This document shows, piece by piece, positions 3,874-15,923 of a DNA stretch of 15,923 nucleotides. Where the stretch lies: contig CAIVOW010000146.1 in assembly GCA_903907665.1 (NCBI GenBank), positions 1 to 15,923 of the forward strand, read 5' to 3'. Within the stretch, counting starts at the first letter, position 1. Each line of letters starts with the position of its first letter. The notes under the pieces were generated by a model. That model worked only from the letters and a program-made list of their open reading frames with translations, did no database searches and had not been told where the DNA came from. A program made the translations under genes and the position numbers. This DNA comes from an uncultured Actinomycetes bacterium (GTDB taxonomy: Bacteria > Actinomycetota > Actinomycetes > Nanopelagicales > Nanopelagicaceae).

Positions 3874-4842
3874 GTGCCAATTGCGATACGCCTTTCCAAG
3901 GTAGCCAAGAATTTTGGGGAAGTTCGAGCCGTAGATGGCGTTGATTTGGAGATCGCTCACGGTGAATTCTTTGCAATGCTCGGCCCTAGCGGTTCTGGTA
4001 AGACAACTGTGCTTCGCATGATTGCCGGATTTGAATTGCCAGATGCTGGAACAATAGAAATTGATGGCGTCGATGTCAGTCGTACTCCTCCTTTCAATCG
4101 TGATGTAAATACAGTTTTCCAGGACTATGCACTCTTTCCACATATGTCAGTTCTTGAAAATGTCGAATATGGACTCAAAGTTAAAAAAATTGGTAAAGAG
4201 GAACGCCTTATTCGCGCGCAAAAAGCGCTTGATCGAGTCAAGCTCAATGGGTATGAAGCGCGTAAACCATCCCAACTTTCTGGTGGACAGCGCCAACGAG
4301 TAGCCCTTGCACGCGCGCTTGTGAATGAACCAAAAGTACTTTTGCTCGATGAGCCGTTAGGTGCACTAGATTTAAAATTACGCCATGAGATGCAGATTGA
4401 ATTAAAGGAACTACAGCGAGACATCGGTATCACTTTTATTTTTGTTACTCATGATCAAGAAGAAGCCCTGACGATGGCTGATCGAATTGCAGTTTTCAAT
4501 TCTGGAAATATTGTACAAATGGGAACCCCTCGAGAGATTTATGAGGAGCCAAATTCTGAATTTGTGGCTGGCTTTGTTGGAATATCTAATTTGATTCATC
4601 AGGCTGGATCTGTCATAAGTATCCGACCAGAAAAGATTAAATTGGGCCGCCAGTTCGATCGCGTGTTAACGGGCGCTGTCTCAAATGTAATGTTTCTCGG
4701 GGCAATAACTCGCGTTGATGTGAATATAGGTTCAGATACATTAAGTATCTTGATTGAAAACGATGGAATCCAGAAGTTACCAAATCTGGGTGAAAACGTT
4801 GAGATTTCCTGGGATTCGAAATACGAATCTCGGGTTGGTTGA
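3874..4842 (+). CDS. potA: ABC importer ATP-binding subunit, spermidine/putrescine (PotA) type
   Basis: Energises import by the adjacent PotB/PotC permeases from the cytoplasmic face. Of 322 residues, the ABC ATPase domain spans about 4-235: Walker A GPSGSGKT (37-44), Q-loop Gln (Q83, VFQDYALFPH), signature LSGGQ (135-139), Walker B VLLLDE (155-160) and switch His in VTHDQEEA (H193). All catalytic residues are intact. A short TOBE-like C-terminal domain (about 245-318) has the IRPEKIKL segment typical of PotA/CysA-type ATPases, and the protein is shorter than E. coli PotA. The GTG start is supported by the TAGAAT box six bases upstream and by the family N-terminus. It is first in a potA-D-B-C order, 39 bp before potD. 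The importer class is certain. Polyamine specificity is inferred from COG0687-type binding protein and permease similarity. Confidence 0.9.
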   Translation: MPIAIRLSKVAKNFGEVRAVDGVDLEIAHGEFFAMLGPSGSGKTTVLRMIAGFELPDAGTIEIDGVDVSRTPPFNRDVNTVFQDYALFPHMSVLENVEYGLKVKKIGKEERLIRAQKALDRVKLNGYEARKPSQLSGGQRQRVALARALVNEPKVLLLDEPLGALDLKLRHEMQIELKELQRDIGITFIFVTHDQEEALTMADRIAVFNSGNIVQMGTPREIYEEPNSEFVAGFVGISNLIHQAGSVISIRPEKIKLGRQFDRVLTGAVSNVMFLGAITRVDVNIGSDTLSILIENDGIQKLPNLGENVEISWDSKYESRVG

Positions 4843-4849
4843 AAAACCA
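4836..4849 (+). other. Small GAAA-loop hairpin at the potA stop codon
   Basis: TGGTT-GAAA-AACCA forms a perfect 5-bp stem closed by a GNRA-type tetraloop and overlaps the potA TGA (4840-4842). It sits just before the strong potD ribosome-binding site. It could mark an mRNA cleavage or stability point that lets the binding protein be made in excess, as is usual for importers. The stem is short, so function is speculative. Confidence 0.3.
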
Positions 4850-4865
4850 CGTTGGCTAAAAATCT

Positions 4866-4873
4866 AGGAGAGG
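4866..4873 (+). promoter_or_regulatory. Strong ribosome-binding site deciding the potD start
   Basis: AGGAGAGG followed by TGAT is a near-complete complement to the 16S rRNA 3' end. It lies 8 bases before the ATG at 4882 and only 2 bases before the ATG at 4876. It excludes the longer TTG start at 4852, whose coding region would cover this site. It is the strongest such site in the pot operon, consistent with high binding-protein synthesis. Confidence 0.65.
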
Positions 4874-4881
4874 TGATGAGA

Positions 4882-6057
4882 ATGCGATCAAAGAAATATG
4901 TAGTAATAGTCGGTGCTTTAGCTGCGCTCGGATTGGCAGTTGCAAGTGCAACATCGACCATGGCTGCTTCTGTTCCAAATGTTGCGATGGCTAAATCTCT
5001 CGGCAAAGGCGAAGGTGCACTTAACCTGATCGTTTGGGCCGGATATGCTGAAAATGGAAGCAACGACAAGACTGTTGACTGGGTTAACCCATTTACCAAG
5101 GCAACGGGATGCAAAGTAAATGCAAAGACAGCTGGAACTTCTGATGAGATGGTTTCATTGATGAAGACCGGGGGATACGACGGAGTTTCTGCATCTGGTG
5201 ATGGTTCACTTCGTATGATCTATGGTGGCCAAGTTGCTCCGGTGAATACCGCACTTGTCCCTAACTACAAAACTATTTCTCCATTCCTGAAGAACCAAAA
5301 GTGGAATTCTGTTAACGGAACCATGTATGGAGTTCCTCATGGTTGGGGCGCGAACGTTCTTGCATACAATTCAGCAAAGGTGAAGACACCAACTTCTTGG
5401 TCTGCTGTATTTGATGCTAATTCACCATACAAGGGCAAGATCACTGCGTATGACTCACCAATTTATATTGCAGATGCTGCGATGTATCTCATGTCTACTC
5501 AACCAAAGCTTGGAATTAAAAATCCTTATGCGTTGGATAAGACACAGCTAGATGCCGCAACTGCCTTGCTTAAGGTGCAGAAGAAGAACATTGGCGAATA
5601 TTGGTCTGACTACACCAAGTCCGTTCAATCATTTGAATCTTCCAACACCCTTCTTGGATCCTCATGGCAGGTTATCGCTAACACCATTAATGGCGGTGGA
5701 AAAGTGAAGATTTCATCCACCGTTCCTAAAGAGGGAGCAACTGGCTGGTCAGATACGTGGATGATTTCATCTAAGGCCAAGCATCCTTCATGCATGTACC
5801 AATGGATGAACTGGATTACATCTCCAACAGTTAACGCACAAGTTGCTGAGTACTTCGGTGAAGCCCCATCCCAAACACTTTCTTGCACAAAGACCGCTGA
5901 TAAGAATTTCTGTTCTACTTATCACGCTACAGATGCGGCATATGCAAAGAAGATTTGGTACTGGACTACTCCAACAGTTGACTGTTTGGATGGTCGCGGA
6001 AAGATCTGTACCGACTATGCAGCATGGACTCAAGCCTGGACTTCTGTAAAGGGCTAG
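4882..6057 (+). CDS. potD: Secreted ABC importer solute-binding protein, PotD-like (polyamine family)
   Basis: Captures the solute outside the membrane and delivers it to PotB/PotC. The chosen start gives 391 residues; ATG 4876 is an alternative, and TTG 4852 is unlikely. Residues 1-29 form a Sec signal peptide: RSKK, a hydrophobic core VVIVGALAALGLAV, then an Ala-rich cleavage region around STMAAS. PotD/COG0687 landmarks are GWGANVLAYN (mid-protein), SPYKGKITAYDSP (D191) and VPKEGATGWSDTW (D291, aligned by eye with the ligand-binding Asp region of PotD). No lipobox Cys follows the signal; the first Cys is C77. Six cysteines (77, 304, 335, 344, 368, 376) suggest disulfides. Lys is mostly AAG, unlike neighbouring genes, which may reflect high expression. 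The exact ligand cannot be read from sequence. Confidence 0.88.
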   Translation: MRSKKYVVIVGALAALGLAVASATSTMAASVPNVAMAKSLGKGEGALNLIVWAGYAENGSNDKTVDWVNPFTKATGCKVNAKTAGTSDEMVSLMKTGGYDGVSASGDGSLRMIYGGQVAPVNTALVPNYKTISPFLKNQKWNSVNGTMYGVPHGWGANVLAYNSAKVKTPTSWSAVFDANSPYKGKITAYDSPIYIADAAMYLMSTQPKLGIKNPYALDKTQLDAATALLKVQKKNIGEYWSDYTKSVQSFESSNTLLGSSWQVIANTINGGGKVKISSTVPKEGATGWSDTWMISSKAKHPSCMYQWMNWITSPTVNAQVAEYFGEAPSQTLSCTKTADKNFCSTYHATDAAYAKKIWYWTTPTVDCLDGRGKICTDYAAWTQAWTSVKG

Positions 6058-6058
6058 C

Positions 6059-6934
6059 TTGAAATCTAATCGCCTCAATACCTGGCTTTATCGCCATAGC
6101 GGAGCGCGGGCGGCACTATTACTAGTGCTGCCTGTGCTCTGGCTAGCGATTGCGTATCTGGGCTCTCTCGGAGTGATGCTCGTTTCTAGTCTCTGGAGCG
6201 TTGATTCATTCACGGGAAATATTGTTCATCAGTTTTCGCTTTCTAATTTCCACCAACTTATTTCGCAAAAGGTTTATAGCACGATTGCAATTCGTTCAAT
6301 CTCAGTCGCAGTTATCGTCACCATTATTGACGGATTGCTTGCAATCCCAATTGCGCTCTTTATCGCAAAAGTTTTGCGACCTAGATTTAGAAGTGTCGTT
6401 ATAGCACTTGTGCTAGTCCCACTTTGGGCTAGCTATCTAGTTAAGACATATGCCTGGCGCAGTATGTTTTCAGATGGCGGCGTTATCTCGTGGGCCTTTA
6501 AACCACTTAAACATCTTGGTATTTCAAGTCCAGGTTTCGGGCTGGTTGCCACAACAATAACGTTGGCTTATCTGTGGTTGCCGTACATGATTCTTCCAAT
6601 CTATGCCGGACTTGAGCGGCTACCTAATTCACTTTTAGAAGCATCTAGTGATTTAGGAGCTCCAGCATTCACTACATTTAAATCGATTATTTTGCCCATT
6701 ATTTATCCGGCCATTATTGCTGGTTCGATTTTTACTTTCTCACTTTCACTTGGAGATTACATCGTCGTAAAAATTGTTGGTGGAACTAGCCAGCTTGTTG
6801 CTAATGTGATTGCCGACAACGTTGGAACAGCGGGCAATCTTCCGTTTGCTGCAGCAATGGCGCTCCTACCGATAGTCACGATCTTGGGCTATCTTTTTGC
6901 GGTCCGCCGTTCTGGTGCATTGGAGAATTTCTAA
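6059..6934 (+). CDS. potB: ABC importer permease, PotB type
   Basis: One of two membrane subunits forming the translocation channel. Its 291 residues hold about six membrane helices (roughly 18-45, 80-103, 112-133, 160-183, 212-236 and 262-283). The EAA loop contacting the ATPase is EASSDLGAPAFTTFKSIILP (194-213), with conserved E, A, G and the terminal LP. TTYAW-type and LWLPYMILPIYAGLERLP-type segments match PotB/PotH permeases. The start is TTG, supported by AAGGG (ending 6053) five bases upstream, within the end of potD, so the two genes are translationally close (one base between stop and start). It overlaps potC by one base. Assignment to the PotB half rather than a generic Fe/thiamine permease rests on the operon and is a little less certain than the family. 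Confidence 0.88.
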   Translation: MKSNRLNTWLYRHSGARAALLLVLPVLWLAIAYLGSLGVMLVSSLWSVDSFTGNIVHQFSLSNFHQLISQKVYSTIAIRSISVAVIVTIIDGLLAIPIALFIAKVLRPRFRSVVIALVLVPLWASYLVKTYAWRSMFSDGGVISWAFKPLKHLGISSPGFGLVATTITLAYLWLPYMILPIYAGLERLPNSLLEASSDLGAPAFTTFKSIILPIIYPAIIAGSIFTFSLSLGDYIVVKIVGGTSQLVANVIADNVGTAGNLPFAAAMALLPIVTILGYLFAVRRSGALENF

Positions 6935-7749
6935 TGTATTTATCAATCAGAGCCAGGCGAGCACTTGCATTTCTTACCTTTGGCACTTTGGCATTTATCT
7001 ATATTCCATTGATTGTTGTTGCGCTTAATTCATTCAATCCATCTAGAACTTTTTCATGGCCCCCACAATCTCTTTCTACTATTTGGTGGAGCCGGCTTGG
7101 TGAGAGCAAAGGCGTACTTCCAGCCATCTTCTCGTCGATAAAAGTTGGCTTAGGAGCAACGGCGATATCACTAGTTTTAGGTAGCTGTATAGCTTTTGCG
7201 GTATCTCGATATAGGTTCTACGGAAAAAATACCCTGTCCTTGCTGGTGATTTTCCCTATCGCGCTTCCTGGAATTATTACTGGAATAGCTTTGAACACGA
7301 CATTCCATACTCTATTAGATCCACTGGGTAAGGAACTGGCGCTGTGGACCGTCATTGTCGGACATGCAACTTTTTGTATTGTTGTGGTCTATAACAATGT
7401 TTTGGCACGTTTGAGACGCTTAGGACAAAGTCTAGAAGAAGCATCGCAAGATCTTGGCGCAAATATTTTTCAGACATTTCGCTACATCACATTTCCACTC
7501 GTTCGGTCTGCGCTGATGGCCGGTGGGCTACTGGCTTTTGCACTTTCATTCGATGAGATTGTGGTGACTACCTTTACGGCAGGTCCGGGTACCGAGACGC
7601 TCCCTCAATGGATCTTTAATAATCTTTTTCGCCCTAACCAAGCTCCTATAGTGAACGTGGTTGCAACAATGTTGATTGTGCTATTTATTTTCCCAGTATG
7701 GCTAAGTCAGAGAATGTCCCAGGACGGCTCGGCTGGCGGACGTTTGTAA
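6934..7749 (+). CDS. potC: ABC importer permease, PotC type
   Basis: Second channel subunit, pairing with PotB. Its 271 residues have about six helices starting near residue 10. The EAA loop is EEASQDLGANIFQTFRYITF (168-187), followed by P188. The later segment ALSFDEIVVTTF plus TETLPQWIFN is the characteristic PotC/PotI signature. The ATG shares its A with the potB stop (TAATG), and GGAGA at 6922-6926 supplies a ribosome-binding site seven bases upstream. The gene ends the operon. Its TAA (7747-7749) is immediately followed by the stop of the convergent FUSC gene, leaving no room for a terminator between them. Confidence 0.9.
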   Translation: MYLSIRARRALAFLTFGTLAFIYIPLIVVALNSFNPSRTFSWPPQSLSTIWWSRLGESKGVLPAIFSSIKVGLGATAISLVLGSCIAFAVSRYRFYGKNTLSLLVIFPIALPGIITGIALNTTFHTLLDPLGKELALWTVIVGHATFCIVVVYNNVLARLRRLGQSLEEASQDLGANIFQTFRYITFPLVRSALMAGGLLAFALSFDEIVVTTFTAGPGTETLPQWIFNNLFRPNQAPIVNVVATMLIVLFIFPVWLSQRMSQDGSAGGRL

Positions 7750-13603: not shown

Positions 13604-14338
13604 ATGTCTGAAAACAGTAGTAGGTCTAGTCAGCCTGAAGGCGAGCCTTCAGACGAGAGCATTCTTGCCCACCCTGTTTTCAACCTCATGCGTTGGTTAG
13701 CGAATAACCCATCTGGTACAGAACTTGCCCGAGAGCTAGCGTTAAATTATTTCCGCCTATACGGAGCAACACAAGTGCGGCTGTCAGTAACAGATGAAGA
13801 AGGCGCTTTGCATTTTGTCGGTGTATTTGGTGCAGACACAGTTGTAACAGGCGATTCTCAAGATATTAATGAGTGGCAAGCTCGAACGGATGAGATTGCC
13901 AAAGTTGAAATAGGACCAGATGGACTGGGTTGGTCTAGTTCGGGCAGATACCTGCAGGCAAGTCTCAATGAATTTGGAAATCGCCGTGGCTGGATCACCA
14001 TCGGCTTTATTGAGCCCCATGGGAAAAATCAATTAAAAGTTGAGCAGTTATTGAAGATTCTCAAGCAAGTTGTGGCCATGCATATGGTGGCGCTTATCCG
14101 CCAATCACCACTTGTGCTCGGCGCCCGGCGCGCACCAGTGGATCGCGATGCTTTTTCACCGCGCCAGCTTTCTATCCTTCAAGGGATGATCCAGGGCAAA
14201 ACCAACAACGAGCTGGCGCTAGAGCTTGGTTTCAGCGTTAGTACTGTTCGCCACGAAACAATGCGTATTTTTGAGCTCCTGAACGTGAGTGATCGCCGTG
14301 AAGCCGCTCGAGATGCCTTGGAGCGAGGGATTTTCTAG
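13604..14338 (+). CDS. LuxR-family transcriptional regulator with GAF-like N-terminal domain
   Basis: DNA-binding regulator of 244 residues. The C-terminal LuxR helix-turn-helix spans about 183-240, with FSPRQLSILQGMIQGKTNNE, LGFSVSTVRHETMRI (recognition helix region) and LNVSDRREAARDAL, all in the expected order. The N-terminal part (about 40-165) alternates beta strands and helices (GATQVRLSVTDEEGALHFVG, RRGWITIGFIEPH) and resembles a GAF-like sensor fold. There is no receiver-type phosphoacceptor Asp pattern, so this is probably a one-component sensor-regulator. The ATG is preceded by GAGGG (13596-13600) with a short three-base spacer. It lies in the same orientation as, and between, the ABC exporter and the sigma factor; either could be its target, but nothing in the sequence proves it. 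Confidence 0.85.
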   Translation: MSENSSRSSQPEGEPSDESILAHPVFNLMRWLANNPSGTELARELALNYFRLYGATQVRLSVTDEEGALHFVGVFGADTVVTGDSQDINEWQARTDEIAKVEIGPDGLGWSSSGRYLQASLNEFGNRRGWITIGFIEPHGKNQLKVEQLLKILKQVVAMHMVALIRQSPLVLGARRAPVDRDAFSPRQLSILQGMIQGKTNNELALELGFSVSTVRHETMRIFELLNVSDRREAARDALERGIF

Positions 14339-14393
14339 AAAGCTCCTAAAAGAGCCCAAAATATAGCAAAACGGACATATCGACCGCCATTAG

Positions 14394-14426: not shown

Positions 14427-14498
14427 TTCTCAGCAAAATAAATGAGAATTCTTCCTACCAGGACGCAACATTTGGGCTACTTACGTGTCTTACATAGT

Positions 14499-14519
14499 AG
14501 AGGGCAAGACGTTGCTCCC
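14499..14519. repeat. Imperfect inverted repeat upstream of the sigma-factor gene
   Basis: AGGGCAA and TTGCTCCCT flank a GACG loop, pairing with a two-base bulge. It lies just downstream of the promoter-like CATAGT, so it could be an operator near the transcription start or a leader hairpin. No T-run follows. Confidence 0.3.
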
Positions 14520-14553: not shown

Positions 14554-15923
14554 GTGCAATTGGGTAAAAAGGGCAAGTCAACAGAGGCGGCTGGTACTAA
14601 CCAGGCCGTATCTGAGTGGACTATTGCCGATTTAAGCGCCCTATACGCCGAACAGCGCTCATCACTTACCGCTCAAGCCCGCCGCATTCTGCGCAATCAA
14701 GCAGATGGCGATGAAGTCGTCCAAGAAGCATTCCTCAAGTTCATTCTTGCTGCTCCTGAACTCGACTCTCGTGAACGTGCGCTCGCTTACCTTCGCACCA
14801 CAGTTAACAACCTCTGCCTCAATCACATCCGCGCAACTGGTTCACGCCCCAACCTTGTTGCTATCGACAGTGAGACTAGCCAAGAGGCAATCAACGAAAT
14901 TTCAGCTACCAACCACATCTCCTTCGACACCACTATGGCTGCCGCTGAAGATGCTTCCATTATTCGCGAAGCTCTTGCTCGCCTCTCATCAGACCAGCGC
15001 ACAGCACTGGTTATGTGGGAGATGGAAGGCCGCTCTACTGAAGAGATCGCAGAAGCACTTGGTACAACTCCAGCGAATGTTCGCCACGTTGTTCAACGCG
15101 CTCGCGCTTCCTTCGTCCGCGTCCTTGCTACATGGGTTGTTGATGAAGAGACTGGCGCTACAGCACTTGATGCTCTTTCAACTTCTTACAAGAAGGCTGC
15201 AGAACTCGCGAAAAAGAGCTCAAAAGTGGCACTTTCATTGCTCCTTGTTCTTGTTGCATTCCTTGGCTTCAACTCCATCACTGGTAACGAAGTTACAAAG
15301 ACAACAACTCAGATTTCAGCTCCAGTGCAGCAAGAAGCGAATACCGCACCAGCGCCTTCAGCTTCTGCAACTGCAACTTCAGATCTTGTAAACAAGTCCA
15401 TTCAGCTTCTTGATGGTGTTAACGTCAAGAGCAACCCATACACATTCCCAGGTCTTGATGCTGAAGGTATCCCAACAGGATTCACTGCCACTGACGGAGT
15501 TCACACCGGCAAGCTTTACGCCTCGGTCTCGGCCCCAGTGGTCACAATCGACGGCACTACCCTTCACGTCATTTCAATGAGCCAGGATGCCAATGCCATC
15601 AACGTCCTGCTCGACCAGAGCCTTTCCATTACTGCCCTCGGTACCACCTATACGGTTGATCCAACGATTACGATCAAGAAGTCGTGGGTACCACTTAATG
15701 TTTCAACTACGAGCACCGATATCACACGCCTACCCGACGGTAATTACCTCGTGACAAGCGTGATGGTCATCGATTCCGCAGTTGATACAGGTACAATTGT
15801 GCCTGTTAACCGGGGTTTTGACCTTACGTCAGCTCCGTCCACTATCACCACTCGCATCGTAATGAACCCAGGCAAGACTCAGGTCTTGGCTCAGGCTATT
15901 TATGTCCAAGCGAAGGGAGCGAA
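14554..15923 (+). CDS. ECF-type sigma factor fused to a transmembrane helix and a predicted extracytoplasmic domain (partial, runs off the right edge)
   Basis: Reading from GTG 14554, the frame stays open for 456 codons with no stop before the window ends. Residues about 26-97 are sigma region 2: ADLSALYAEQ, then DGDEVVQEAFLKF (51-63), then ALAYLRTTVNNLCLNHIR (76-93). A linker follows. Region 4 (about 132-190) has LARLSSDQRTALVMWEMEG, the EEIAEALGTTPANVRHVVQR helix-turn-helix and RARASFVRVL. A Lys-rich segment (KKAAELAKKSSK, 213-224) precedes a hydrophobic helix (VALSLLLVLVAFLGF, 225-239), so by the positive-inside rule the rest faces outward. Next come a Pro/Ala/Ser/Thr-rich linker (about 250-277) and at least 170 residues rich in beta-type sequence that I do not recognise. 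Only one Cys is present in the visible part. No separate anti-sigma gene is visible upstream. Target promoters and signal are unknown. Confidence 0.85.
   Translation, partial: MQLGKKGKSTEAAGTNQAVSEWTIADLSALYAEQRSSLTAQARRILRNQADGDEVVQEAFLKFILAAPELDSRERALAYLRTTVNNLCLNHIRATGSRPNLVAIDSETSQEAINEISATNHISFDTTMAAAEDASIIREALARLSSDQRTALVMWEMEGRSTEEIAEALGTTPANVRHVVQRARASFVRVLATWVVDEETGATALDALSTSYKKAAELAKKSSKVALSLLLVLVAFLGFNSITGNEVTKTTTQISAPVQQEANTAPAPSASATATSDLVNKSIQLLDGVNVKSNPYTFPGLDAEGIPTGFTATDGVHTGKLYASVSAPVVTIDGTTLHVISMSQDANAINVLLDQSLSITALGTTYTVDPTITIKKSWVPLNVSTTSTDITRLPDGNYLVTSVMVIDSAVDTGTIVPVNRGFDLTSAPSTITTRIVMNPGKTQVLAQAIYVQAKGA

Follow-up and report, generated by a model that had tools for sequence, protein, structure and literature searches.

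As described in excerpts of the ECF52 study (PMC5826349), the proteins of this group, which is confined to actinobacteria and represented by SCO4117 of Streptomyces coelicolor, join sigma regions 2 and 4, a membrane helix, a Pro-rich stretch, and an outer domain on one chain, and a truncated form of SCO4117 activates the promoter of its own gene. Extracts of a review (PMC8999054) add the ECF48 and ECF53 groups, actinobacterial sigma factors with C-terminal membrane extensions for which proteolysis is expected and which, by the review's description, carry one or two transmembrane (TM) segments in addition to a zinc-finger domain. The same extracts present IutY of Pseudomonas putida (ECF243), a sigma factor that shares one chain with the membrane part controlling it and is released by membrane proteolysis (PMC8999054). 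A preliminary description of the DNA studied here had surmised that an ECF sigma factor continuous with a membrane anchor and an outer domain might have actinobacterial kin, and ECF48, ECF52, and ECF53 supply that precedent. We compare these systems with a gene at the end of the window (the whole 15,923-nucleotide stretch of DNA that we analyzed) and with the region that follows this gene in related genomes.

The gene for the membrane-tethered ECF sigma factor occupies 14554..15923 of the + strand, on which all of its features lie. A GTG start codon at 14554 opens a single frame that, in the ORF listing, reaches the window end after 456 codons plus 2 bases of a gene of 457 codons plus stop. 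The stop codon, which the preliminary description had proposed to seek by extending the contig, lies just past the window: four database proteins identical or nearly so to the window protein (P0002-P0005; 457 aa) finish at residue 457, so that the window lacks only the stop itself and the third base of codon K457. Both sigma regions, read from the letters as intact, score above their Pfam cut-offs, region 2 at 14644..14841 (residues 31-96; PF04542 Sigma70_r2, 47.7 bits, cut-off 24) and region 4 at 14959..15108 (residues 136-185; PF08281 Sigma70_r4_2, 49.1 bits, cut-off 25.7). The TIGR02937 sigma70-ECF model scores 74.3 bits against a cut-off of 42.9, and in the Pfam search of the window protein Sigma70_r3 stays below cut-off as a domain (16.7 bits versus 25.3). 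The window protein is an ECF (group 4) sigma-70 factor with regions 2 and 4 and without a region 3 domain.

Beyond region 4, the frame continues through a conserved, Lys-rich juxtamembrane segment (15124..15219, residues 191-222), a predicted membrane helix running from inside to outside (15220..15282, residues ~223-243), a variable linker rich in Pro, Ala, Ser, and Thr (15283..15429, residues 244-292), and an all-beta outer domain (15430..15921, residues 293-456 in the window). Hydropathy, composition, and AlphaFold modeling all agree with this arrangement of Lys-flanked helix, linker, and beta domain in one frame, just as it had been proposed. The most hydrophobic 19-mer spans residues 225-243 with a mean Kyte-Doolittle value of 2.26, and across 50 aligned rows (45 of the 58 related loci introduced below plus 5 database proteins) the hydropathy peak ranges from 1.71 to 2.28. 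Topology was assigned from hydropathy and the positive-inside rule: all 50 rows carry 4-5 Lys or Arg in the 20 residues before the hydrophobic peak and 0-2 in the 20 after it, which places the sigma part inside and the C terminus outside. In the linker of the window protein (residues 242-292), Pro, Ala, Ser, or Thr stands at 23 of 51 positions, Pro at only 3 of 51. The AlphaFold model of the whole protein (pLDDT 70.6, pTM 0.40) is all beta-strand over residues ~310-452, and the outer domain modeled alone (residues 285-456) is again all beta (pLDDT 89.5, pTM 0.85). Pfam gave no match beyond the sigma part of the window protein, and a fold search returned no convincing match between the outer beta domain and known folds; a sensory role for this domain is plausible.

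With one genome scanned per species, we obtained 58 related loci, all under actinobacterial records (including 'Candidatus Planktophila' and 'Candidatus Nanopelagicaceae'), among which certain MAG labels, such as 'Bifidobacterium breve', look misnamed. The full fusion is kept in these relatives, being complete in 48 of the 58 and interrupted by contig ends in the remaining 10, and the 48 complete fusions exclude the frameshift or assembly join at 15200-15260 that the preliminary description had entertained. In a sample from the order of the complete genome G001, a TM-sigma match at E <= 1e-30 occurs in 82 of 201 genomes, a count of presence that says nothing on absence, as the completeness of the other 119 is unstated. 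Each of six genomes titled complete or chromosome has one TM-sigma copy among 3-4 sigma region-2 proteins, and the tethered sigma is thus one of few transcription switches in these small genomes. Mean pairwise identity is 0.65 in sigma region 2, 0.76 in sigma region 4, 0.47 in the outer domain, and 0.31 over linker residues 242-292; the juxtamembrane segment (0.74 over 50 rows) and TM residues 223-241 (0.78) are conserved to the same degree as sigma region 4. Third-position entropy at fourfold sites, computed over 46 coding sequences, is 1.51 in the juxtamembrane segment and 1.44 in the TM versus 1.33 over residues 30-190. Synonymous sites are therefore free beneath the conserved residues, which argues for selection on the protein segment itself, beyond mere hydrophobicity.

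An ECF-like promoter, CAACATTT-N11-GTGTCTTA, precedes the sigma gene at 14466..14492 (+ strand) and is the single exact match in the window. An AAC-type -35 element is a trait of ECF promoters, which the window motif resembles. Shuffled sequence is expected to yield 0.01 matches with up to 2 mismatches allowed, a figure obtained post hoc, since the window and related loci had themselves supplied the pattern. Upstream alignments inspected by eye show a possible small hairpin with a GACG loop where the sigma mRNA would begin (14502..14519, + strand). We surveyed promoters in 59 sources, namely, the 58 loci and the window: the type C motif stands before 30 clade-1 sigma genes and 2 unclassified sigmas, and type D, a different motif, stands before 20 clade-2 sigma genes, with 0 crossed cases; neither motif was found in 3 sources, and the upstream sequence is too short in 4. 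Type C lies at the sigma gene in all 9 genomes searched for it, without a second match in G082 and five single-long-contig genomes, and with additional matches in G018 (1), G024 (1), and G043 (3). Strict type D was matched in 7 of 9 type-D genomes, at the sigma gene in 5, and 5 matches fell elsewhere. This pattern suits autoregulation; the matching of sigma to promoter amounts to one deep split and, taken alone, is weak evidence for it. The type-C motif is absent at the second surface genes of L006, L009, and L015, and in the 3' end of the sigma gene we found no constrained stretch hinting at a surface-gene promoter (entropy 1.67, residues 430-457).

The upstream surroundings offer several observations of their own. 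A LuxR-type regulator gene lies directly upstream of the sigma gene (13604-14338), and its cluster recurs in 14 of the 59 sources at varying distance from the sigma gene. Positions 14370-14379 read AACGGACATA, the reverse complement of which resembles a portion of TGTCCGTTTTGTCC, a repeat that sits before clade-2 sigma genes (e.g., in L033 and L041). Ordinary polyamine-type ABC transporter genes, encoding an ATPase, a YdcS-like binding protein, and two permeases, fill 3874-7749.

The window ends before the region downstream of the sigma gene, and the leader and surface gene described here are known from relatives. An RNA leader of ~130-200 nt follows the sigma stop in 50 of 50 loci having sequence there (L002:11378-11530, L024:11321-11490, L033:11327-11493, and 47 more); the other 8 of the 58 loci end within 2 nt of that stop. 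The leader model was built from 44 of the 50, and the other 6 are independent of it. The leader consists of three strongly covarying hairpins with the constant loops TCCGGATA and CAGCACGTGCG, and 23 of its 31 pairs change on both sides. Its cells pair in 97.1% of cases versus 74.9% in shuffles and 33-51% with the partners slid, a comparison in which the first figure is favored by a structure derived from the same alignment. Compared with shuffles, two natural leaders fold 5.7 and 4.1 standard deviations lower. For 6 loci, Rfam at the gathering threshold returned nothing but tRNAs, and a relaxed search with one leader returned 4 matches, all far under their gathering scores; a search for the TM-sigma, the leader, and the coat locus in a limited set of open-licence papers found nothing. 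The leader is apparently undescribed so far. It is present in 80 of the 201 order-level genomes, where 71 of 91 leader matches adjoin a sigma match and 71 of 85 sigma matches have an adjoining leader; judged by coordinates, the remaining 14 sigma matches comprise 13 that break off at a contig end or close to one and 1 that is half of a split match. In G098:C24:9252-14141, the TM-sigma gene stands in two tandem copies, with a separate leader behind each.

The leader ends in GAAAGGA and is followed by a gene whose product mostly begins MSTKT and has a signal-peptide-like start. Complete surface-type proteins of this kind run to roughly 560-1000 aa, and none of the 6 tested matched a Pfam family above cut-off. 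By their tested members, a Wzy_C ligase cluster and a UDP-glucose/GDP-mannose dehydrogenase cluster occur near the surface gene in 26 and 20 of the 59 sources, respectively. We infer from these sequences that the downstream product is a surface coat. The sigma gene heads a conserved unit that comprises the putative promoter and, in relatives, the leader and a predicted secreted surface-type gene, and its position before that gene suggests one-protein control of the outer coat in some tiny and highly abundant lake bacteria.

Departures from this architecture are found both within and beyond the order. L090 (2266-3279) and L092 (4951-5907) retain the sigma part and the TM and have the beta domain swapped for a short tail; the surface gene stays in both, and their leaders score just 52.6 and 61.6 bits. 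In a class-level sample, the number of genomes with a match at E <= 1e-20 is at least 31 of 296, a lower bound obtained with up to five candidates scored per genome. Five of these 31 matches fall outside the order sample, in genomes of 2.6-4.1 Mb (G304, G341, G323, G236, and G214). Four of the five genomes have a TM-fused sigma, each with its own Pro-rich linker, the TM being assigned by hydropathy in three and by eye in the fourth (L133), which is cut by a contig end; the fifth, with the distant relative L136, has a short frame without a TM. Secreted-looking proteins with Ig-like matches below cut-off are encoded downstream of L134 and L136, and the RNA leader was not found in the five outside-order genomes. 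Because a secreted neighbor occurs there without the leader, the pairing of the sigma with a secreted-protein gene may be older than the leader.

With confidence that falls somewhat short of even, we favor a model in which the tethered sigma would be freed by intramembrane proteolysis and would autoregulate an operon with the coat protein as its chief product. The conserved juxtamembrane-TM segment would act as the tether and keep the sigma largely from RNA polymerase, and the outer beta domain would feel a change in the coat or envelope. That change would trigger proteolysis in or near the TM by a site-2 protease or a rhomboid, the freed sigma would fire the CAACATTT-N11-GTGTCTTA promoter, and transcription would pass through the sigma gene, the structured leader, and the surface gene. 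We count in favor of release and autoregulation the conservation of the juxtamembrane segment and TM, the linkage to the leader, the matching of promoter to clade, the single type-C match in each of five single-contig genomes, the lack of a constrained stretch in the 3' end of the sigma gene, and the proteases, alongside the precedents of truncated SCO4117 and released IutY. The preliminary description, which had inferred either action at the membrane or release by regulated proteolysis, had pointed to site-2 and rhomboid proteases as partners to look for, and one of each (PF02163 and PF01694) is indeed present in 6 of 6 complete relatives; both families are, however, also present in 14 of 14 control genomes, and their co-occurrence is thus permissive only. 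Further points against release and autoregulation are the loss of the outer domain in L090 and L092 even though the TM and surface gene stay, the secreted protein that follows L136 even without a TM, the second surface genes without type C, and the placement of strict type D at the sigma gene in just 5 of 9 genomes with 5 other matches. A Pfam search also recognized no anti-sigma domain in the tethered protein; across the six complete genomes, zf-HC2 was matched just once, in G005, ~0.4 kb past a different ECF gene, and we therefore see no zinc-finger anti-sigma for the tethered sigma.

A protein with no anti-sigma domain to be removed is what would be expected under the main rival, which we consider possible but doubtful, namely, that the sigma is active while in the membrane and recruits RNA polymerase to the inner face. 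The coat protein would then be transcribed, translated, and exported in one place, and the outer domain would modulate activity by conformation without cleavage. The protein-level conservation of the juxtamembrane segment and TM, the secretion of the neighboring gene's product, and the retention of the TM where the outer domain is lost all count for such a sigma, as do ToxR and CadC, which are DNA-binding regulators bound to the membrane. Against it, we know of no sigma factor that initiates while membrane-bound. According to extracts of the ECF review (PMC8999054), moreover, release is the expected fate of the closest fused sigmas. We judge it unlikely that the protein senses some other envelope condition, such as wall or membrane stress, and commands a wider regulon in which the surface gene is one target or a chance neighbor. 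The outer domain, which has neither a fold match nor an established ligand, leaves room for such a signal, and our promoter searches used exact patterns only, which a degenerate regulon would escape. Against this reading, the sigma gene is linked to leader and surface gene in all 50 of the 50 loci that extend past its stop. That the sigma part no longer works and the protein serves as a membrane anchor or decoy is highly improbable: its unusual architecture and nothing else commends the idea, against which stand two sigma regions above their Pfam cut-offs and conserved at identities of 0.65 and 0.76.

Some loci carry two surface genes in opposite orientation. These are L006 (11380-16800), L009 (7690-12760), and, in four further genomes found through partial leaders, L122, L123, L124, and L125. 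A tyrosine recombinase gene lies between the surface genes in L006, L009, L122, and L125 and beside them in L123 and L124. PF00589 scored above cut-off in 4 of 4 tested recombinases (those of L006, L009, L091, and L095, of which L091 is identical with the L125 locus and L095 is adjacent to L124), and those of L122 and L123 were assigned by motif alone. Two sets of inverted repeats occur: the outer ones (121-186 nt, 83-96% identity) overlap the leader in its 3' part, and the inner ones (189-287 nt) overlap the surface genes at their 3' ends; in L006, by eye, the repeat begins ~10 bases before the short palindrome CTCATGACTTATGAG. The second copies have partial or weak leaders (37-57 bits). The pair inspected at L124 consists of two extra copies, the sigma-linked copy not being among them, and the L122 contig stops at the leader, ahead of any sigma gene. 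An opposite-strand partner lies 4.8-12 kb away in 6 of the 80 leader-bearing genomes (G024, G025, G051, G055, G092, and G152), and no single locus was seen in both orientations. The opposed surface genes, repeats, and recombinase likely mark an invertible coat locus.

Joined to the preceding evidence, such a locus leads us to offer, as a tentative synthesis, that the TM sigma may be a single-protein coat sensor that auto-activates its own gene, the new leader, and an S-layer-like protein, and that the leader may hold a recombinase crossover that swaps coat genes. If this is true, coat genes would be swapped behind a fixed sigma, promoter, and 5' leader half, and the resulting antigenic variation, which might help to evade phages, would arise in a bacterial group that ranks among the most abundant in fresh water. 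Sensing outside and acting inside on one chain, with no recognizable anti-sigma domain, such a sigma would be a minimal signaling device. With the surface gene, the covarying leader, and the inverted coat genes in hand, surface variation and phage resistance become directly testable.

Set against the described systems, the window protein has the TM and subsequent Pro-rich extension of ECF52 in the form of one hydrophobic peak and a linker rich in Pro, Ala, Ser, and Thr. ECF52 proteins have a zinc finger ahead of the TM and an outer carbohydrate-binding module; the window protein has no zinc finger, its outer beta domain is unrecognized, and its neighbor in relatives is a surface-protein gene. 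Pfam found no zf-HC2 between region 4 and the TM, and over residues 188-222 Cys occurs in 0 of 50 rows and His is lacking in 47 of 50. We rejected membership in ECF52 because its defining zinc finger is absent. IutY differs in that its fused part, in the extracts that describe it, is the anti-sigma factor of a siderophore system, and the window protein has no such Pfam domain. In invertible surface-layer loci, of which sap of Campylobacter fetus is an example, opposed alternative surface-protein genes are flanked by inverted repeats and a recombinase gene lies nearby. The loci reported here share all three of these traits. What sets them apart is a structured leader behind a TM-sigma gene, with whose 3' part the outer repeats overlap, and the opposed arrangement was seen in 6 of 80 leader-bearing genomes. 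Fused ECF sigma factors are already known; what is novel here is the conserved unit that such a sigma forms with the leader and the surface gene.
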